A stretch of DNA of 64,000 nucleotides, from NCBI RefSeq assembly GCF_007556705.1, contig NZ_VJOL01000001.1, positions 62,001 to 126,000 of the forward strand. The letters are read 5' to 3'. Positions 24,636-34,925 of the stretch are shown in pieces. The DNA comes from Tepidimonas thermarum. Its GTDB lineage: Bacteria; Pseudomonadota; Gammaproteobacteria; Burkholderiales; Burkholderiaceae_C. The notes beneath the pieces are model-generated. The model searched no databases. It had not been told where the DNA came from and saw only the letters and a program-made list of their open reading frames with translations. Position 1 is the stretch's first letter. Every line of letters starts with the position of its first letter. The translations under genes were made by a program, and so were the position numbers.

Positions 24636-26504
24636 TCAGCGCCGCGTGGGCGGCAAGTCGGTGCAGCTGCCGTGCGCGGCTTCGGCTGCCATGCCGATGC
24701 TTTCGCCCAGGGTCGGGTGCGGGTGGATGGTGCGGCCGATGTCCACGGCATCAGCGCCCATCTCGATCGCCAGCGCAATCTCGCCGATCATGTCGCCGGC
24801 GTGGGTGCCGACGATGCCGCCGCCCACGATGCGGTGCGTGGCCTCGTCGAACAGCAGCTTGGTAAAGCCTTCGTCGCGCCCGTTGGCGATGGCGCGCCCG
24901 GAGGCACCCCACGGGAACAAGCCTTTTGTCACCGCGATGCCCTGCGCGCGCGCCTGGTCTTCGGTCAAACCGACCCAGGCGATCTCGGGGTCGGTGTAGG
25001 CCACGCTGGGGATGACCCGCGCATCGAACGCACGGCGCGCCAGGGCGGCATCGCCCAGCAACTCGCCCGCCGCCACCTCGGCCGCCACATGAGCCTCGTG
25101 CACCGCTTTGTGCGCCAGCATCGGCTGGCCGACGATGTCACCGATGGCAAAGATGTGCGCGACGTTGGTGCGCATCTGCACGTCCACCGGGATGAACCCC
25201 CGCTCGTTGACCGCCACACCGGCGTGCTCGGCGCCAATCTTGCGGCCGTTGGGCGCGCGCCCAACCGCCTGCAACACCAGGTCGTACAGGCCTTCGGCCT
25301 GGCTGCCATCGGCCCCTTCGAAACGCACGCGGATGCCGTCGGCCGTCGCTTCGGCCCCCACGGTGCGCGTGCGCAAGCGGATGTGGTCGAAGCGGTGCGC
25401 GTTCATTTTTTGCCAGACCTTGACCAGGTCGCGGTCGGCGCCGGTCATGAGCCCGTCGAGCATCTCGACGACCTCGAGCCGTGCCCCCAGGGTCGAGTAC
25501 ACGGTGCCCATCTCCAGCCCGATGATGCCGCCGCCGATGATGAGCATGCGCTGGGGCACGCGCGCCAGCGCCAGGGCCCCGGTGCTGTCGATGATGCGCT
25601 CGTCCTGCGGCAAAAACGGCAAGCGCACCGCCTGCGAGCCCGCGGCGATGATCGCCTTGCGAAACGCCACGACCTGGCGCCGACCGGTCTTGTCCTGGCC
25701 AGGACCGGTGGTTTCCTCGACCGCCACGTGCTGCGGTCCGACGAACGCACCGTAGCCGCGCAACACCGTCACCTTGCGCATCTTGGCCATGGCGGCCAGC
25801 CCGCCGGCGAGCTTGCCCACGACCTGGTCTTTGTGCGCGCGCAAGCGGTCGAGATCGACCGTGGGCGCCCCGAAGGTCACGCCAGCGTCGGCCAGGTGGC
25901 GCGCCTCGTCGATGACCGCGGCCACGTGCAGCAGCGCCTTGGACGGAATGCACCCGACGTTGAGGCAGACGCCACCCAACGCCGGGTAGCGCTCCACCAG
26001 CACGACCTTGAGCCCGAGGTCCGCCGCGCGAAACGCGGCCGAATAGCCGCCGGGGCCACCACCGAGCACCAGCACATCACACGCCAGGTCGGCGCCGCCC
26101 GCGTAGGCTGTGGCCGTGGCCGCCGCAGACCCACTGGCGCCCGCCGCCGCGCCGGGCGTCGCGGGCGCGGATGGGGCTGCGGCATCCGCGGTGGCGGCCC
26201 CGCCTGCGGCAGGGGTCGCAGCCGCCGCGGGTTCGGCCGGCCGCGGCGCGGCAGCGGTGGGGGCGTCGGCCGCCTCGAGCACGGCGATCAACGACCCTTC
26301 GCTGACCTTGTCGCCCAGTTGCACCTTGAGCTCGCGCACCACCCCGGCGTGGCTCGACGGAATCTCCATCGACGCCTTGTCCGACTCCACCGTGATCAGC
26401 GACTGATCCACCTGCACCGCATCGCCCGGCTTGACCAGCAGCTCAATCACCGCCACATCTTTGAAGTCCCCAATGTCCGGGACCCGAATCTCGATCGTGC
26501 CCAT
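24636..26504 (-). CDS. lpdA: dihydrolipoyl dehydrogenase (E3) with N-terminal lipoyl domain
   Basis: FAD enzyme that re-oxidises lipoamide for the pyruvate dehydrogenase complex. The 622-residue protein has a lipoyl domain at 1-80 with acceptor Lys43 (ESDKAS), an Ala/Pro-rich linker at about 80-155, and the E3 core with the redox disulfide in [17 protein letters not shown] and a C-terminal HAHPTL-like motif (here [10 protein letters not shown]). Ordinary E3 proteins are about 470 residues; the fused lipoyl domain occurs in several beta- and gammaproteobacteria. The lipoyl coding region is nearly identical in DNA to that of aceF. The gene follows aceF by 13 bases. Confidence 0.96.
26299..26484 (-). 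repeat. 186-bp near-identical repeat in the lipoyl domain of lpdA
   Basis: Identical to 27746-27931 at 185 of 186 positions, the single difference being a synonymous C/T near position 26400. It encodes most of the lipoyl domain around Lys43. Sequence diverges sharply outside these borders. Confidence 0.95.
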
Positions 26505-26517
26505 GCCGGCAGCCCTT

Positions 26518-27951
26518 TCACAGCAGGATGCGGCGGAAGTCCGCCAACAGTTGCGCCAAATAGGCGTTGAAGCGGGCAGCCGCCGCCCCGTCGATGACGC
26601 GGTGGTCCCAGGTCAGCGACAGCGGCAACATCAGGCGCGGCGTGAACTCCTTGCCGTTCCACACCGGCTCCCAGCGCGACTTGCACACGCCCAGGATCGC
26701 CACCTCGGGCGCGTTGATGATGGGCGTGAAGTAGCGCCCGCCGATGCCGCCCAGGCTGGAAATCGTGAAGGTCGCACCGCTCATGTCGGCCGGCGCCAAT
26801 TTGCCCTCGCGCGCCTTGGCGGCGAGCTCGGCCATTTCGCGGCTGATCTGCAAGATGCCTTTTTGGTCCGCGCTTTTGATGACCGGCACCACCAGCCCAT
26901 TGGGCGTATCGGCCGCAAAGCCAATGTTCCAGTAGCGCTTGTAGATCAACGCATCGCCACCCGAGGCCATGTCCAGCGAGCTGTTGAACTCGGGGAATTT
27001 CTGCAGCGCCGCCACGCACGCCTTGACCAGGAACGCCAGCATCGTGACCTTGACGCCGCTTTTGGCGTGCTCCTCGTTGAGCTGGACGCGAAACGCCTCG
27101 AGCTCGGTGACATCGGCATCGTCGTGGTTGGTGACCGCCGGGATCATCGCCGCGTTGCGCATCAGGTTGGCGCCGCTGATCTTTTTGATGCGGCTGAGCT
27201 CGCGCCGCTCGATGGGGCCGAACTTGGCAAAGTCCACCGTCGGCCAGGGGATGAGACCCAGCGCCGCGCCGTCGCCCGCCGCCGGCGCCGCCGGGGCTTT
27301 GGCCGCCTGGGCGCGGGTTTGCACCTCGCCCGCCATGACGGCACGGGTGAAGGCCTGCACGTCCTCCAGGGTGATGCGGCCCTTGGGGCCGGTGCCGCGC
27401 ACCTCGGCCAACGGCACGCCCAGCTCGCGCGCAACCTTGCGCACGCTTGGCGAGGCATGCGGCAGGCCCAGCGGCGGGCGCGTGGGATCATGCGCGGCAG
27501 CGGCTGCGGGCACCGACGGCGCGGCAGCGGGCACCGCCGCAGTCGCGGGCGGTGGTGGCGCGGGGACGGCCACCGTGGCCAGCGACGCAGGCGCAGATGC
27601 AGACACGGGCAGCACGGGGGCCACGGCCACCTGGGGTGTCACCACGGCAGGCGCCGGCGCGGCGGGCGCCGGCTGTCCCCCAACCGATGCTGGCGCGGCG
27701 GCGGACGCCTGCGCCTCGGTCTCCAGCAGCGCCACCACCGAGCCCTCGCTGACCTTGTCGCCCAGTTGCACCTTGAGCTCGCGCACCACCCCGGCGTGGC
27801 TCGACGGAATCTCCATCGACGCCTTGTCCGACTCCACCGTGATCAGTGACTGATCCACCTGCACCGCATCGCCCGGCTTGACCAGCAGCTCAATCACCGC
27901 CACATCTTTGAAGTCCCCAATGTCCGGGACCTTGACTTCCACCAATGCCAT
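26518..27951 (-). CDS. aceF: dihydrolipoyllysine-residue acetyltransferase (E2)
   Basis: Core subunit of the pyruvate dehydrogenase complex; it transfers the acetyl group to CoA. The 477-residue protein has one lipoyl domain (1-80, Lys43), a long Ala/Pro linker (about 80-170), a peripheral subunit-binding domain ([20 protein letters not shown]) and the catalytic domain ending with [13 protein letters not shown], which holds the active-site His. E. coli AceF has three lipoyl domains; one is common in relatives whose E3 also carries one. ATG 27951 is preferred to the upstream GTG 27969. It starts 14 bases after aceE. Confidence 0.96.
27746..27931 (-). repeat. 186-bp near-identical repeat in the lipoyl domain of aceF
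   Basis: Partner of 26299-26484, in the same orientation with the starts 1447 bases apart. It encodes AceF residues of the lipoyl domain, including the lipoylated Lys43. Confidence 0.95.
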
Positions 27952-27965
27952 GTCGTGCTCCCGAA

Positions 27966-30683
27966 TCACGCGTACAAGGGGTTGGGCTTATCGGTGTCGA
28001 TGCCGTATTTGGCAATCGCTTCGGCCACGCGCGCGGCAGGCACGCTGCCCTCTTCGGCCAGCGCCTTGAGCGCGGCCACCGCAATGTAGTGGCGGTCCAC
28101 CTCGAAGTGGCGGCGCAGGCGGTAGCGAAAATCGCTGCGCCCAAAACCGTCCGTGCCCAGCACCTTGTAGGTGCGTCCCTTGGGCAGGAAGGGGCGGATT
28201 TGCTCGGCAAACGCCTTGACATAATCGGTGGACGCGACCACCGGCCCGGGATGGTCGCCCAGTTGCTGCGCCACGAACGGCACGCGCGGCGTCTCGGTCG
28301 GGTGCAGCAGGTTCCAGCGTTCGCAGTCCTGACCGTCGCGCGCCAGCTCCGTGAAGCTCGGGCAGCTCCAGACGTTGGCCGCCACCCCCCAGTCCTGCGC
28401 CAGCAGGGTTTGCGCCGCCAGGCTCTCGCGCAGGATGGCGCCGCTGCCCAGCAGCTGCACGCGCGGCGTGAGCTTGGGCCCCTCGCGCAGCAAATACATG
28501 CCGCGGATGATCTGCTCTTCCGTGCCCGGCGTCAGACCCGGCTGGGGGTAGTTTTCGTTGAGCAGCGTGATGTAGAAGAACACGTTGTCCTGCTGCTCCA
28601 CCATGCGCTTGAGGCCGTGGTGCAGGATCACCGCCACTTCGTGCGCGAACGTGGGGTCGTAGCTGACGCAGTTGGGGATGGTGGCCGCGATCATGTGGCT
28701 GTGGCCGTCTTCGTGCTGCAAGCCCTCGCCGTTGAGCGTGGTGCGTCCGCTGGTGCCCCCGAGCAAAAAGCCGCGCGCCTGCATATCCCCGGCCGCCCAG
28801 GCCAGATCGCCAAAGCGCTGGAAGCCAAACATCGAGTAGTAAATGAAGAACGGGATCATGATGCGGTTGTTCGTCGAGTACGACGTCGCCGCGGCGATCC
28901 ACGAACTCATCCCACCGGCCTCGTTGATGCCCTCCTGCAGGATCTGGCCGGCCTGGTCCTCCTTGTAGTACATGACCTGGTCCTTGTCGACCGGGGTGTA
29001 GAGCTGGCCCTTGGGGTTGTAGATGCCGATCTGGCGAAACAACCCCTCCATGCCAAAGGTGCGCGCCTCGTCCACGAGGATGGGCACGACGCGCGGGCCC
29101 AGCGCCTGGTCACGCAGCAACTGGGTCAAAAAGCGCACATAGGCCTGCGTGGTGCTGATTTCGCGCCCCTCAGGCGTGGGCTCGAGCACGGCCTTGAAGG
29201 TTTGCAGCGAGGGCACCGTGAACTGCTCGTCGCTGCGCACACGCCGGCGCGGCAAATAGCCGCCCAGGGCCTTGCGCCGCTCGTGCAGGTAGCGCATCTC
29301 GGGCGTGTCGTCGGCCGGCTTGTAAAACGGGATCTTGGGCAGCTCGCTGTCCGGGATCGGGATGTTGAAGCGGTCGCGGAAGTAGCGGATGTCCTCGTCC
29401 GAGAGCTTCTTGGTCTGGTGCGCGGTGTTCTTGCCCTCCCCCGCGCGGCCCATGCCGTAGCCCTTGACGGTTTTGACCAGAATGACCGTGGGCTGGCCCT
29501 TGTGGTGGTAGGCGCGGTGAAACGCCGCATACACCTTGCGCGCATCGTGGCCGCCACGGCGCAGGGCCCAGATTTCCTCGTCGCTCATCTTGGCCACCAG
29601 CTCCAGCGCCTTGGGGTGGCGGCCAAAGAAGTGCTTGCGCACGTAAGCGCCATCGTTGGCCTTGAACGCCTGGTAGTCGCCGTCGAGCGTCTCCATCATG
29701 ATGCGGCGCAGCACCCCTTCCTTGTCGCGCGCCAGCAACGGGTCCCAGTTGCTGCCCCACAGCAGCTTGATGACGTTCCAGCCCGCCCCGCGAAAATCGC
29801 CTTCGAGCTCCTGGATGATCTTGCCGTTGCCGCGCACCGGGCCGTCCAGGCGCTGCAGGTTGCAGTTGACGACGAAGATCAGGTTGTCCAGCCCTTCGCG
29901 CGCGGCCAGGCCGATGGCGCCCATGCTCTCGGGCTCGTCCATCTCGCCATCGCCGCAAAACACCCACACCTTGCGCCGGGCCGTGTCGGCAATGCCGCGC
30001 GCGTGCAGGTATTTGAGGAAGCGCGCCTGGTAGATGCCCATGATCGGGCCCAGCCCCATGCTGACCGTTGGAAACTGCCAAAACTCGGGCATCAGCTTCG
30101 GATGGGGGTAGCTGGACAGCCCCTTGCCCTCGACCTCCTGGCGGAAGTTGAGCAGCTGCTCTTCGGTGATGCGCCCTTCCAGGTAGGCGCGGGCGTAAAT
30201 GCCCGGCGCACTGTGCCCCTGGATGTAGAGCAGGTCGCCGCCGTGGGTGCCCCCCTGGTCGGTGTCGTCGGCGTGCCAGAAGTGGTTGAAGCCGCACGCC
30301 AGCAGGTGCGCCAGCGACTGAAACGAGCTGATATGTCCGCCCAACTCGCTGCCGTCCGGGGCGTGCAGCCGGTTGGCCTTGACCACCATCGCCATGGCGT
30401 TCCAGCGCATGTAGGCACGCAGCCGCCCTTCCAGCTCCAGGTTGCCGGGGCTGCGCTCTTCCTCATCCGGCTCGATGGTGTTGACGTAGCCGGTGGTGGC
30501 GGAAAACGGCAGGTCGATGCTGTGTTCGCGTGCTTCTTCCAGCAGTTGTTCGAGCAGGAAGTGCGCGCGCTCGGCACCCTCGCGCTCGATGACGGCGTCG
30601 AGCGCATCGAGCCACTCGCGCGTTTCTTGCGGATCGGCATCCGGCGCCACCAGCGCGGAAATCGGCGGAACGTCTTGGGACAT
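27966..30683 (-). CDS. aceE: pyruvate dehydrogenase E1 component, homodimeric type
   Basis: Thiamine-diphosphate enzyme that decarboxylates pyruvate and acetylates the E2 lipoyl arm. The 905-residue length fits the E. coli-type homodimeric E1 (887). The ThDP motif begins GDGEMDEPESMGAIGLAARE and ends NCN, and the segments GHISSFQSLAHLLACGFNHF, GGTHGGDLLYIQGHSAPGIY and FGRSDFRYRLRRHFEVDR are diagnostic. It is the first gene of the aceE-aceF-lpdA operon and is divergent from a sensor kinase gene. Confidence 0.97.
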   Translation of the reverse strand: MSQDVPPISALVAPDADPQETREWLDALDAVIEREGAERAHFLLEQLLEEAREHSIDLPFSATTGYVNTIEPDEEERSPGNLELEGRLRAYMRWNAMAMVVKANRLHAPDGSELGGHISSFQSLAHLLACGFNHFWHADDTDQGGTHGGDLLYIQGHSAPGIYARAYLEGRITEEQLLNFRQEVEGKGLSSYPHPKLMPEFWQFPTVSMGLGPIMGIYQARFLKYLHARGIADTARRKVWVFCGDGEMDEPESMGAIGLAAREGLDNLIFVVNCNLQRLDGPVRGNGKIIQELEGDFRGAGWNVIKLLWGSNWDPLLARDKEGVLRRIMMETLDGDYQAFKANDGAYVRKHFFGRHPKALELVAKMSDEEIWALRRGGHDARKVYAAFHRAYHHKGQPTVILVKTVKGYGMGRAGEGKNTAHQTKKLSDEDIRYFRDRFNIPIPDSELPKIPFYKPADDTPEMRYLHERRKALGGYLPRRRVRSDEQFTVPSLQTFKAVLEPTPEGREISTTQAYVRFLTQLLRDQALGPRVVPILVDEARTFGMEGLFRQIGIYNPKGQLYTPVDKDQVMYYKEDQAGQILQEGINEAGGMSSWIAAATSYSTNNRIMIPFFIYYSMFGFQRFGDLAWAAGDMQARGFLLGGTSGRTTLNGEGLQHEDGHSHMIAATIPNCVSYDPTFAHEVAVILHHGLKRMVEQQDNVFFYITLLNENYPQPGLTPGTEEQIIRGMYLLREGPKLTPRVQLLGSGAILRESLAAQTLLAQDWGVAANVWSCPSFTELARDGQDCERWNLLHPTETPRVPFVAQQLGDHPGPVVASTDYVKAFAEQIRPFLPKGRTYKVLGTDGFGRSDFRYRLRRHFEVDRHYIAVAALKALAEEGSVPAARVAEAIAKYGIDTDKPNPLYA

Positions 30684-30876
30684 GGTGTCGTCTCCTCAAA
30701 AGCCCAGCAACAGCGTACGGCGCGAGCGCGCCGTTGTCCACGAAGTGTCGCACGAAAATCGCCAATTTCCAAACTATGGTTTTTATTTTTATATTGTGAA
30801 ATTTTTGTACCGCGCGCGTTCGCGCACGCTCGCCCCGCCGTTCACAATGCTAGGGTTTGCCCTAAACTGTCGTGCC
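30684..30876. promoter_or_regulatory. AT-rich divergent control region between aceE and the sensor kinase
   Basis: The stretch 30761-30810 is strikingly AT-rich for this genome, with TTTTATTTTTATATTGTGAA near 30781-30800. It offers -10-like elements on both strands (for example TATATT at 30790-30795), and an imperfect TTT/AAA dyad centred near 30795 could bind a repressor of the pyruvate dehydrogenase operon. No ORF or RNA gene is seen. Confidence 0.5.
30851..30864 (+). promoter_or_regulatory. palindrome at the sensor kinase promoter
   Basis: TAGGG-TTTG-CCCTA is a perfect five-base dyad ending 12 bases before the kinase ATG. TAAACT at 30863-30868 overlaps its right arm and could be a -10; that would place the transcript start next to the ATG at 30877, where no Shine-Dalgarno sequence is visible. 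Confidence 0.5.
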
Positions 30877-33444
30877 ATGGTCCAACCCCACAGCACCGAC
30901 GCCGAACGCGCACCCCTGCGCTGGTGGCGCGCGCCACGGCTGTGGTGGCGCCAGTGGTGGGACCGCTTGCCCCCGCACCGCCAGGATCGCTTGGCGGTGC
31001 TCGGGCCGGTGCTGTCGGTGCTGCTTTTTCTGACGGCGATCTTTTCGGCGCTGGGCTACTTCAGCCAACAGGAGGCCGACCGCGAGCAAGAAGCCGTCGT
31101 GCGCGACACCGAGTACGCGCAACAGCGCTTGCGCCTGCGGCTGCTGGAGCGGCAGGAAAAGCTCATGCGCATGGCACGCGACATCGCCAACCGCTCGATC
31201 GAAGAAACGGAGTTCGTCTTCCAGGCCGAGGAGCTGGTGGCGCAAAACCCCGACGTGCTGGCGGTGCACTGGATCGGGCCGTACCGCGAGGTGGTCACCG
31301 GCTACACCGCCCCGGGAGCGCCAGCGCATGCCCACCGCCGCGCGGGCGAGACGCTGCCGCCCAACACCACCGGTGGTGCGTTTGACCTGGCGCGCGACCT
31401 GCACCAGCCGATCTACTCACGGCCACTGCCCTGGCCCGACGGGGGCAGCACGCTCATGGTGCTGATCCCGTTCGAGGACCAGCGCCGCTTTGGTGGTGCC
31501 GTGATGGCCGAGTACGACATTGCCGGTTTGCTGCGCTATGGCGTGCCGGCGGAGGTGTTGGCGCGCTACGCCGTCACGCTGGTCGGCGAGGATGGCACGC
31601 TGTACGCGGGCACCCCCCTCAAACCGTTGACGACGCCGCTGTCGCGCCTGCCGTGGGCGCCGCGCCCGCAGCGCCACGAACTGCCCGTTTCCCCGATCGG
31701 CAACAGCCTGCTGATCCGCGCCGAGGGCTTGCGTGCCGACCGTGACTGGGGCAGCGAAGCGCTGTTTTGGATCGTGGGGGCGATGAGCGTGGCCACCATC
31801 TGGATGCTGCTGGGCAACATGCGCCACACACGCCGGCGTCTGCAAGCGCAACGCGCCCTGGTGGCCGAGACCAACTTCCGCCGCGCCATGGAAAACTCGA
31901 TGCTCACCGGCATGCGGGCGCTGGACATGGAGGGGCGCATCACCTACGTCAACCGCGCTTTTTGCGACATGACCGGCTGGAGCGAGGAGGAGCTCATCGG
32001 CGCCAGCGCCCCCTTCCCCTACTGGCCGGAGCACGAACACGACACCCTCATGGCGCGGCTGCAGGACGAAATCGCAGGCCGCAACACCCCGGGCGGCTTC
32101 GAGGTGCCGGTCAAGCGCAAAAACGGCAGCATCTTCTACGCGCGCATGTACGTCTCGCCGCTGATCGACGCGCAGGGTCGCCAGACCGGCTGGATGACGT
32201 CGATGACCGACATCACCGAGCCCAAGCGCATCCGCGAAGAGCTCAGCGCCTCGTACGACCGTTTTGCCACCGTGCTCGACAGCCTGGATGAGGCGATCTC
32301 GGTCGCGCCGCTGCACAGCCACGAGCTGTTGTTTGCCAACCGCATGTACCGCAACTGGTTTGGCGAAGGCTCTGCCGGCCACGAGCGGATGTTGGAGCTG
32401 TGCGCCTCGGTGCCCGTGCTGCCGCCGCAGGACCACCACGACCAGGTCGACAGCCTCATGGGGCTGCCTGCCGACGCGCTGGTGGAGGCGGTGGCCGAGC
32501 ATGCGCAAATCCTGGTGCCCGAACTGGGCAAATGGCTGGAGGTGCGCACCCGCTACCTGACCTGGGTGGACGGGCGGCTGGTGCAAATGCTCATCGCCAC
32601 CGACATCACCGCGCGCCACCAGGCCGAAGAACAAGCGGCCCTGCAAGCGGAGCGCGCCGAAACCGCCAGCCGCCTCATCACGATGGGCGAGATGGCCTCC
32701 AGCGTGGCGCACGAACTCAACCAACCGCTGACCGCGATCAGCAACTACGCCAGCGGCATGATCAGCCGGTTGCAAAAGGGGCACATCAGCCCGCAGGACT
32801 TGCTGGGCGCGCTGGAGAAAACCGCCCGCCAGGCGCAACGCGCCGGCCAAATCATCCAGCGCATCCGCGCGTTCGTCAAAAAGAGCGAGCCCAACCCCAC
32901 GCTGTCGGACGTGGCGCAGATGGTGAGCAACGCCACCGAACTCGCCGACATCGAACTGCGCCGCCACATGGTGCGTCTCAACACCTACGTGGCGGCGCGT
33001 CTGCCACGCCTGATGGTGGACCCGATTTTGATCGAGCAAGTGCTCATCAACCTGCTCAAAAACGGCGGTGAATCGATCCAGCAGGCGCAACGTCCGCCGG
33101 GTCAGCGGCACATCGAGCTGCAGGTGGTGCCGCGCACGGTCGACGGCCGCCCCGGGGTGGAGTTCACCGTACGCGACAGCGGCGGGGGCATCCCCCAGGA
33201 GCGCCTCGACCGCATCTACGAAGCCTTCTACAGCACCAAGAGCGAGGGCATGGGCATCGGCCTCAAGCTGTGCCGCTCCATCATCGAGTCGCACCACGGC
33301 CGGCTGGTGGCGCGCAACCTCTACAATGGCGACGCGATTGTCGGCTGCGAATTCTCGTTCTGGATTCCGGAGCCGCCGCCCGAGGCGTCCGCTCCGCTTG
33401 CCCCCCGATCAACCGAAACGCAGACGACGCCTGAAGGAACATGA
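30877..33444 (+). CDS. PAS-domain sensor histidine kinase (FixL/DctB-like)
   Basis: An 855-residue membrane sensor. Transmembrane helices lie near 40-64 and 294-314 and enclose a periplasmic sensing domain of about 230 residues. They are followed by a PAS domain (about 335-450, ITYVNRAFCDMTGWSEEELI), a second PAS-like region (about 460-590), and the HisKA core with phospho-acceptor His612 in SSVAHELNQPL. The ATPase domain shows the N box NLLKNGGESI, and GMGIGLKLCRSIIESHHGRL. An ATG at 30847 is in frame but would split a palindrome. The stop overlaps the response regulator ATG as ATGA. The ligand is unknown; its position opposite aceE suggests pyruvate, acetate or other carboxylates. Confidence 0.93.
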   Translation: MVQPHSTDAERAPLRWWRAPRLWWRQWWDRLPPHRQDRLAVLGPVLSVLLFLTAIFSALGYFSQQEADREQEAVVRDTEYAQQRLRLRLLERQEKLMRMARDIANRSIEETEFVFQAEELVAQNPDVLAVHWIGPYREVVTGYTAPGAPAHAHRRAGETLPPNTTGGAFDLARDLHQPIYSRPLPWPDGGSTLMVLIPFEDQRRFGGAVMAEYDIAGLLRYGVPAEVLARYAVTLVGEDGTLYAGTPLKPLTTPLSRLPWAPRPQRHELPVSPIGNSLLIRAEGLRADRDWGSEALFWIVGAMSVATIWMLLGNMRHTRRRLQAQRALVAETNFRRAMENSMLTGMRALDMEGRITYVNRAFCDMTGWSEEELIGASAPFPYWPEHEHDTLMARLQDEIAGRNTPGGFEVPVKRKNGSIFYARMYVSPLIDAQGRQTGWMTSMTDITEPKRIREELSASYDRFATVLDSLDEAISVAPLHSHELLFANRMYRNWFGEGSAGHERMLELCASVPVLPPQDHHDQVDSLMGLPADALVEAVAEHAQILVPELGKWLEVRTRYLTWVDGRLVQMLIATDITARHQAEEQAALQAERAETASRLITMGEMASSVAHELNQPLTAISNYASGMISRLQKGHISPQDLLGALEKTARQAQRAGQIIQRIRAFVKKSEPNPTLSDVAQMVSNATELADIELRRHMVRLNTYVAARLPRLMVDPILIEQVLINLLKNGGESIQQAQRPPGQRHIELQVVPRTVDGRPGVEFTVRDSGGGIPQERLDRIYEAFYSTKSEGMGIGLKLCRSIIESHHGRLVARNLYNGDAIVGCEFSFWIPEPPPEASAPLAPRSTETQTTPEGT

Positions 33445-34070
33445 TGAGCCTGACGCCCAAACGCGCAACCGTGTACGTGGTCGATGACGATGAAGCCGTG
33501 CGCGACTCGCTGCAATGGCTGCTGGAGGGGCGGGACTACCGCGTGCGCTGTTTCGAATCGGCCGAAGCCTTCCTGGCCCGCTACGACCCGCGCGAAGTGG
33601 CCTGCCTGATTGCCGACATCCGCATGGGTGGCATGAGTGGCATGGAACTGCAACAGCGGCTGCTCGAGCGCCACTCACCGCTGCCCATTTGCTTCATCAC
33701 GGGCCATGGCGACGTGCCCATGGCGGTGGAGTCGATGAAAAAAGGCGCGATCGACTTCATCCAAAAGCCGTTCGACGAAGCGCTACTGCTGGCGCTGGTC
33801 GAAAAGATGGTCGACATTGCGCATGAGGCCTTTGCCGTGCACCAGCAAGCGGCCACGCGCGAAGCGCTGCTGGCCAAGCTCACCACGCGCGAGTCGCAGG
33901 TGCTCGAGCGCATCGTCGCCGGGCGGCTCAACAAGCAAATCGCCGACGATCTGGGCATCAGCATCAAGACGGTGGAAGCCCACCGCGCCAACATCATGGA
34001 AAAGCTGGGCGCCAACACGGTGGCCGACCTGCTCAAAATCGCCCTTGCCCCCACCCCCACGAAAGTCTGA
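33441..34070 (+). CDS. FixJ/NarL-type response regulator with LuxR HTH domain
   Basis: A 209-residue transcription regulator, partner of the upstream kinase. The receiver domain has acidic residues 15-17 (VVDDDEAV), phospho-acceptor Asp59 in LIADIRMGGMSG, Thr in FITGHGDVPMA and Lys109 in FIQKPFD. The C-terminal LuxR-type HTH (about 148-195) reads LTTRESQVLERIVAGRLNKQ then IADDLGISIKTVEAHRANIM. The organisation is FixJ-like. A second ATG lies at 33444. Three bases separate it from folD, which is probably in the same transcript. Confidence 0.94.
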   Translation: MMSLTPKRATVYVVDDDEAVRDSLQWLLEGRDYRVRCFESAEAFLARYDPREVACLIADIRMGGMSGMELQQRLLERHSPLPICFITGHGDVPMAVESMKKGAIDFIQKPFDEALLLALVEKMVDIAHEAFAVHQQAATREALLAKLTTRESQVLERIVAGRLNKQIADDLGISIKTVEAHRANIMEKLGANTVADLLKIALAPTPTKV

Positions 34071-34073
34071 TTC

Positions 34074-34925
34074 ATGGCAGCCCAACTCATCGACGGCGCG
34101 GCGCTGTCGCGCCTGTGGCGCGCGCGCCTGAGCGAACGTGTGACGGCGCTCAAAGCGCGCGGCACCCTGCCCGGGCTTGCGGTCATCCTGGTTGGCGACA
34201 ACCCCGCCAGCCAGGTCTACGTCCGCAACAAGGTCAAAGCCTGCCAGGAGGTGGGCATCCACTCCGTGCTGGAGACCTACCCCGCCAGCCTGACCGAAGA
34301 CGCGCTGCTGGCGCGCGTGCGTGCCCTCAACGCCGACCCCGCGATCCACGGCATCCTGGTGCAGCTGCCGCTGCCGGCGCACATCGATGCGCAGCGCGTC
34401 ATCGAGACCATCGCCCCTGAAAAAGACGTCGATGGCTTTCACGTCGCCAACGCCGGCGCCCTGATGGTGGGGCGGCCTGGCTTTTGGCCCTGCACCCCCT
34501 ACGGTTGCATGAAAATGTTGGAGCACATCGGCTGCGACCCGTGCGGCAAGCACGCCGTGGTCATCGGGCGCAGCAACATCGTCGGCAAGCCCATGGCGCT
34601 GATGCTGCTGCAGGCCAACGCCACGGTCACCATCTGCCACAGCGCCACCGCGGATTTGGCGCACCACACCCGCCAGGCCGACATCGTCGTGGCGGCAGTG
34701 GGCAAACGCAACGTGTTGACGGCCGACATGGTCAAGCCGGGCGCCGTGGTCATCGACGTCGGCATGAACCGCGACGAGGCGGGCAAGCTGTGCGGCGACG
34801 TGGACTTCGAGGGGGTGCGTCAGGTGGCCGGGTGGATCACCCCGGTGCCCGGGGGCGTGGGCCCCATGACGATCACGATGCTGCTGCTCAACACGGTGGA
34901 AGCGGCCGAGCGCGCCGCGCGCTGA
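34074..34925 (+). CDS. folD: methylenetetrahydrofolate dehydrogenase/cyclohydrolase FolD
   Basis: Interconverts 5,10-methylene- and 10-formyl-tetrahydrofolate with NADP+. The 283-residue enzyme carries the catalytic [14 protein letters not shown] segment, the [12 protein letters not shown] and PEKDVDGFH motifs, the nucleotide motif [15 protein letters not shown] and the C-terminal [15 protein letters not shown]. It follows the response regulator by 3 bases, an unexpected pairing of housekeeping enzyme and two-component system, but it may reflect only shared transcription. Confidence 0.97.

Follow-up and report, generated by a model that had tools for sequence, protein, structure and literature searches.

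Here we analyze a 64,000-nucleotide stretch of the Tepidimonas thermarum genome (positions 62,001 to 126,000 of contig NZ_VJOL01000001.1; hereafter the window) in which a sensor histidine kinase and a FixJ-like response regulator are encoded divergently from aceE, the gene for pyruvate dehydrogenase E1, and are followed by folD. We find that this pair is a real and highly conserved two-component system of an already known kind, probably a carbon/redox switch, and that it is a bridge between two literatures. Our best explanation, to which we assign a probability of roughly 0.62, is that the pair is its family's member of one conserved betaproteobacterial two-component system that comprises BphP/BphQ from Acidovorax sp. 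KKS102, AccS/AccR from Azoarcus sp. CIB as a close homologue (PMC6456745), and the “FixL/FixJ” of Burkholderia dolosa. This figure covers the whole explanation: the identity of the system, its mechanism, and a separate main control of aceE. A first-pass annotation of the window had called the pair uncharacterised and knew of no described system in this context. That call is corrected by PMC6456745 (2019), which describes AccSR, relates BphPQ to AccSR, and places most such genes near ace genes.

The link to Burkholderia comes from both gene order and sequence. The B. dolosa FixL/FixJ genes (AK34_969/968) lie in the same aceE-kinase-regulator-folD locus, and the copy that we compared, from strain LMG 18943 (L118), has aceE divergent from the kinase gene and folD downstream. 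It encodes an 851-residue kinase, against 855 residues in T. thermarum, with G345, R347, and W439 numbered as in PMC8406202, so that the likeness to B. dolosa FixL extends to these three residues at identical numbers. In a tree built from 55 of the 85 aligned kinases and rooted only for display (L061 was left out of the alignment as its kinase motif was not found, and L015 duplicates L070), the window and B. dolosa kinases belong to a single starred set of 29 (97/94). A larger starred set of 44 (99/95) holds 43 aceE-divergent kinases and one long-branched other, L059, and the label of aceE divergence needs two changes on the tree. The two kinases do differ: they are about 41% identical over the aligned part, B. 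dolosa keeps the equivalent of AccS C694, and the PAS helix is not the same. On sequence grounds, the literature on catabolite repression and the literature on “oxygen-sensing virulence” thus appear to describe one orthologous locus, a connection that is new here. None of the literature matches listed joins FixLJ with AccSR or BphQ; the FixLJ papers PMC5234846 and PMC8406202 do not contain AccS, AccR, BphQ, or “catabolite”, and PMC6456745 does not contain FixL.

Likeness to the other two systems was judged from their description in PMC6456745. BphP/BphQ has the same kinase-regulator order and the same linkage to ace genes, and BphP-type kinases are said to lack PAS-1 and to retain two PAS domains. 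The window kinase has one clear PAS domain before its core, the only one found by Pfam (residues 334-446); in our model from the PAS domain to the kinase (mean predicted local distance difference test score, pLDDT, 60.8), the second region, residues 469-578, is below 50. Of the PAS domains named in the first-pass annotation, only one is therefore secure. AccS/AccR shares with the window a kinase with two transmembrane segments, a periplasmic sensor plus PAS, a FixJ-like regulator directly downstream, and ace genes nearby. Hydropathy places the two segments of the window kinase near residues 38-60 and 294-314, which agrees with the periplasmic part of about 230 residues that had been noted at first pass and with the roughly 220 residues of BphPQ and AccSR. 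AccS differs from the window kinase in having PAS-1 and the C694/C697 pair, and by cysteine pattern it may be nearer to kinases outside the aceE-divergent clade.

The gene order is conserved on a large scale. Among 120 genomes from 119 genera of the window's family (f1), the kinase is present in 116, including every one of the 105 with completeness of 90% or more and contamination of 5% or less; aceE was found in 116 and folD in 111. The kinase is divergent from aceE in 111 of 117 family copies, or 112 with G090, where aceE is cut by a contig end, and folD lies downstream in the same orientation in 107 of the 117 (aceE paralogue rows of no more than 65% identity, and two folD paralogues, are omitted from our tabulation). 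In G079 and in the draft genome G019 the pair lies apart from aceE; three further kinases (G065, G043, and G104) start within 0.8 kb of a contig start, so their aceE neighborhood is uninformative. In a sample of 200 genomes from across the order, at least 46 carry the kinase at E 1e-75, a lower bound, as four candidates were scored per genome and G213, G248, and G135 carry the pair beyond those matches. Of 100 genomes sampled from the Burkholderia-type family (f31), 75 carry the kinase at E 1e-100, and all 25 others are 2.8 Mb or smaller. The regulator adjoins the kinase in the 70 tabulated loci. When named loci were fetched with a Burkholderia-type kinase as query (the best 80 of 245 relatives), aceE was divergent in 79 of the best 80; in the remaining locus, L127, the upstream sequence is limited to roughly 500 bases. 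The recurrence of this neighborhood, which the first-pass annotation had noted for Comamonadaceae and suggested surveying, is thus borne out. One genome, G063, carries two copies of the locus (L253 on contig C4 and L254 on C39); its listed contamination is 2%, and the second copy may be mixed DNA.

The linkage between the pair and aceE is therefore real, and two accounts of it compete with ours. The first is that the linkage is a neutral relic, an ancestral gene order inherited without regulatory meaning; separations are tolerated in G079 and G019. In a further family, f7, aceE and folD are direct divergent neighbors in L212 and L215 with no kinase or regulator between them, so the pair is lost from this spot or never entered it; folD lies further off in L213 and L214, and the fetched stretch of L211 is without it. 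The two-box element described below nonetheless persists in all five of these loci. We nevertheless regard neutrality as unlikely, given that the order is kept in 112 of 117 copies (with the kinase in 115 of 119 sampled genera) and in loci of several other families.

The second account, proposed at first pass, is that the pair is a dedicated pyruvate-flux switch acting directly on aceE through the shared control region. Besides the divergent order itself, it draws on a functional link between ace and acc genes proposed in PMC6456745, on a sensor resembling KinD, which has been solved with pyruvate (see below), and on a highly conserved element in the gap. This element consists of two boxes, A and B, which we found by alignment and with a matrix that admits only a fixed spacing of 20 bp. 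With the threshold set at a score of 25, both boxes are present in 40 of 42 gaps from f1, 112 of 113 from f31, 3 of 3 from f4, 4 of 4 from f17, and 2 of 4 from f9, whereas none of 3,320 single-base shuffles reaches it. The f31 rows weigh less than their number, since most of them come from close relatives. With a matrix built from f1 only, each of the 124 other gaps scored above the best of its own shuffles. With as many as 3 mismatches allowed, the window's genome contains a single box B. Scans for box A in B. dolosa and P. xenovorans returned the aceE site as the best match in each (0 and 1 mismatch); beyond it, the counts exceed those of the reversed-pattern control only moderately (28 against 11 and 81 against 47, summed over both strands). 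The family alignment of gaps also contains an AGTnTCgCAcA block that is not in the rows of other families.

The behavior of the boxes, however, argues against direct control by the pair. Where the pair has moved, the boxes stay at aceE (scores of 34.4 in G079 and 45.9 in G019) and the kinase upstream region scores below -13. In all five f7 loci, the boxes are retained at aceE (41.6-43.2) and the fetched stretch contains no match to the pair. A search of six whole f7 genomes at E 1e-25 brought up no regulator of more than 45% identity, whereas five control genomes gave an orthologue at 59-68%. In f9, the score is 30.3 for two loci that lack the pair. Conversely, G090 and G033 keep the pair beside aceE and the boxes are absent. 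Because the boxes remain at aceE whether the pair is moved or missing, the element can be separated from the pair and is more likely aceE's own. One case is contrary: G170 has a regulator of 54% identity about 100 kb from aceE, and the boxes are absent at aceE (10.4). In further families, most of the other fetched regions upstream of aceE that lack the pair stay under 14, with L238 at 24.7. A pyruvate-flux switch at aceE thus seems rather improbable to us, and the shared region offers little support for direct control of aceE.

Based on these comparisons, the two-box element is better read as a putative operator of aceE itself for another factor. We rejected the boxes as the regulator's own site because their position tracks aceE in G079 and G019 and because f7 retains them in the pair's absence (G170 again being contrary). 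We also considered a plain sigma-70 promoter and found it insufficient, since box B is symmetric on both arms; promoter-like matches overlap the boxes on both strands, and a core-promoter contribution is possible. A candidate aceE promoter with its -35 hexamer within box A was picked out by eye and is not among the consensus-scan matches. LysR-type regulators use a palindromic distal site and an imperfect site at -35, 20 bp apart, and the two boxes could represent such an arrangement. Among the open reading frames beside aceE in the f7 loci, we recognized no LysR gene by eye, no family search having been made. In seven loci (L011, L016, L025, L029, L046, L047, and L068) a TGCTGCAnnnGCACA-like stretch stands just after box B; we take it to resemble the site of PhaR, the polyhydroxyalkanoate regulator.

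We next consider what the kinase may sense. The periplasmic domain has no Pfam match, and we modeled it with AlphaFold2 from 36 sequences (mean pLDDT 73.8). The best match of the model is the double-Cache sensor domain of KinD from Bacillus subtilis (4jgo-4jgr; Foldseek E 6.8e-08), with Z 18.0 and a root-mean-square deviation (rmsd) of 2.7 over 198 aligned residues for 4jgq_B, and Z 17.5 and rmsd 2.7 over 202 residues for 4jgp_B, the entry solved with pyruvate. The two share this fold over about 200 residues; they differ in sequence (11-14% identity) and in output. Other double-Cache receptors, whose ligands include cytokinins, amino acids, and C4 acids, score between 14 and 17.6, and for this reason the fold does not fix the ligand. 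Most likely, the domain would bind a small organic acid, and the model lends some support to the organic-acid ligand suggested at first pass.

A second input may come from the cytoplasmic core, for which the published systems offer two candidates. The first is the thiol switch of AccS, in which oxidized quinones inactivate the kinase through three cysteines (C694, C697, and C863) and a change of C697 or C863 abolishes quinone inhibition (PMC6456745). We matched these positions by distance from the catalytic histidine, AccS itself being outside the alignment. The C863 equivalent is invariant (85 of 85 aligned kinases), and that of C694 is found in 36 of 44 f1 and 15 of 15 f31 kinases. The equivalent of C697, mutationally required in AccS, occurs in 0 of 44 f1 and only 2 of 15 f31 kinases, and the window kinase has alanine and methionine at the C694 and C697 positions, leaving it with the C863 equivalent only. 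The published AccS switch is therefore not transferable unchanged, and we consider its operation here improbable. All 44 f1 kinases carry an extra cysteine at His+212, which could substitute for the missing AccS-type cysteine.

The second candidate is that the kinase is a true oxygen sensor with a haem-binding PAS domain, as its name in Burkholderia implies. In B. dolosa, a fixK-lacZ fusion is induced about 5-fold at low oxygen and fixK falls in the deletion mutant (PMC5234846), and a predicted haem pocket is stated by PMC5234846 and PMC8406202. In addition, FixJ is the regulator's best relative among solved structures, and the haem sensor DosP is matched at E 9.4e-04 by the B. dolosa PAS domain and at 9.6e-04 by that of the window. 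Closer comparison points elsewhere. The NCBIfam FixL profile (NF041777, cut-off 850) covers the kinase part only, at profile positions 235-474 of 485 with 185.5 bits for the window and 235-483 with 214.1 bits for B. dolosa, and both regulators are under the cut-off of 255 for FixJ (NF006900; 233.7 bits for the window, 234.6 for B. dolosa). In FixL, the haem ligand lies in the PAS helix that in the present kinases follows a PFP[YF]W/PFAYW motif. Two histidines follow the PFPYWP motif of the window kinase (EHEHD) and one each is found in L002 and L006, but the residue is not conserved, as none of the 15 f31 kinases has a histidine in this helix (L034 has two further on). Finally, for the window and B. 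dolosa alike, the nearest PAS domains among solved structures are those of 3ewk, light sensors, Aer, and NifL, not FixL: for B. dolosa, FixL PAS chains reach only E 0.023-0.04 against 2.6e-13 for 3ewk, 1.6e-07 for Aer, and 1.8e-06 for NifL, and for the window no haem-PAS FixL chain is among the 52 chains at E 0.001. A FixL-type haem-PAS is thus poorly supported by sequence, and we judge a true FixL/FixJ oxygen sensor to be very unlikely. Because 3ewk, Aer, and NifL bind flavin, a flavin-binding PAS domain is a lead, and a lead only.

The output of the system can be approached through its relatives. Phosphorylated AccR represses aromatic genes in response to succinate, the bzd promoter being its target, and where favorable organic compounds control the biphenyl promoter, BphPQ is named as taking part; the original BphQ paper is reportedly that of Ohtsubo from 2006. 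In B. dolosa without fixLJ, the genes for enoyl-CoA hydratase, acetyl-CoA synthetase, butyryl-CoA dehydrogenase, 4-carboxymuconolactone decarboxylase (11.9-fold), and PaaY (13.0-fold) rise 11.9- to 15.8-fold, and flagellar and other genes fall (PMC5234846); these values are from Table 1 of that paper, its authors' selection from 300 rising and 285 falling genes. In B. cenocepacia, the paa genes are under succinate and glucose repression (PMC2770484). Joining these literatures, we infer that the rises in B. dolosa match the expectation for lost catabolite repression.

Taken together, we propose the following mechanism. The periplasmic double-Cache domain would bind a small organic acid, as its fold suggests, and the PAS domain and kinase core would add a redox or respiratory signal, a step seen in vitro for AccS only and consistent with low-oxygen activation in Burkholderia. 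The kinase would then phosphorylate the regulator, which by analogy with its relatives would mainly repress less-preferred catabolic genes and activate others. The pair may adjoin aceE since both are tied to the same carbon/redox state, as is also proposed in PMC6456745, and aceE itself is probably governed mainly by another regulator via the two-box element.

Several observations weigh against this explanation. FixLJ is not purely a repressor, because 285 genes fall beside the 300 that rise in the B. dolosa mutant (PMC5234846). Of the only two aromatic-catabolism families searched in the window's genome, PF00775 has no match and PF00848 has one, a difference from the BphP/BphQ setting; aromatic-gene repression is for this reason unlikely to be the main job of the pair in T. 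thermarum, and its regulon is probably another. Two of the three redox cysteines of AccS are absent from the window kinase, and a sequence search of the sensor against solved structures gave nothing usable, leaving the KinD ligand residues without a mapping. The proposed carbon-control function in T. thermarum is carried over from relatives, the likeness to the KKS102 and Azoarcus CIB systems is by the description in PMC6456745, and the B. dolosa locus that we compared is that of strain LMG 18943, not AU0158.

The features of the locus are collected in Table 1. The gene layout and the 193-base AT-rich gap reported at first pass were confirmed: the GC content of the gap is 0.534 against 0.689 for the window, only 54 of 63,807 overlapping 193-base windows are equally AT-rich (the gap's own neighbors being counted among them), and the window's lowest-GC 70-mer begins within the gap, at 30740. 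The kinase start is the ATG at 30877, with an alternative in-frame ATG possible at 30847. The kinase stop and the regulator start overlap in an ATGA (33441-33444), and the regulator has Response_reg and GerE domains by Pfam. Given that folD, a gene absent from the first-pass description, starts 4 bases past the regulator's last base (a 3-base gap), it is probably co-transcribed. In the neighboring operon genes lpd and aceF, the lipoyl-domain coding stretches (26274-26484 and 27721-27931) are 96% identical over 211 bases, pointing to a recent duplication or gene conversion between neighboring subunit genes.

Table 1. Features of the aceE-kinase-regulator-folD locus, in window positions.
Feature	Position	Strand	Basis
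aceE, pyruvate dehydrogenase E1	27966..30683	-	TIGR00759, 1437 bits, cut-off 859.9
aceE/kinase intergenic region, 193 bp, AT-rich	30684..30876	.	coordinates and GC
Candidate aceE promoter, TTGGAA, 17 nt, GACACT; -35 within box A	30744..30772	-	by eye, tentative
Box A, consensus TTTCAAATnrTG	30766..30778	.	gap alignment and matrix from relatives
Box B, a near-palindrome with consensus TTTCATATTATGAAAT, whose start is 20 bp from that of box A	30787..30802	.	
Putative promoter-like site for kinase, TTCACA, 16 nt, TAAACT	30841..30868	+	consensus scan
Sensor histidine kinase, 855 aa, BphP/AccS/Burkholderia-FixL type	30877..33444	+	domains, alignment, tree
Periplasmic sensor, residues 63-292, predicted double-Cache fold, best match KinD	31063..31752	+	AlphaFold2 model, structure search
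Cytoplasmic PAS, residues 334-446	31876..32214	+	Pfam PF00989, E 4.9e-19
HisKA dimerisation/phosphoacceptor domain, residues 603-670	32683..32886	+	Pfam PF00512
Catalytic His612 codon of kinase	32710-32712	+	
HATPase_c, residues 715-833, with invariant Cys799 (matched to AccS C863)	33019..33375	+	Pfam, alignment
Response regulator, 209 aa, FixJ/BphQ/AccR type	33441..34070	+	
Receiver Asp59 codon of regulator	33615-33617	+	
folD, next gene after regulator	34074..34925	+	NCBIfam NF010786, 522.3 bits, cut-off 421

The identification joins carbon catabolite repression in pollutant degraders with FixLJ-dependent adaptation in Burkholderia lung infection, two fields whose papers, among those examined, do not share gene names, and Burkholderia FixLJ is under selection in cystic fibrosis. 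A broader view, which we offer tentatively and at somewhat less than even odds, is that one ancient Burkholderiales carbon/redox switch has been studied under three names. The FixLJ of cystic-fibrosis Burkholderia would then act in catabolite repression without haem and sense organic acids through a KinD-like domain, its low-oxygen response would be a respiratory read-out, and aceE would separately carry an undescribed two-box operator, common to several families, for another regulator. If this is true, the signal of Burkholderia FixLJ should be sought in organic acids and respiratory redox state rather than in haem-bound oxygen. The two-box element of aceE offers a specific bait for finding what regulates pyruvate dehydrogenase across this large order.

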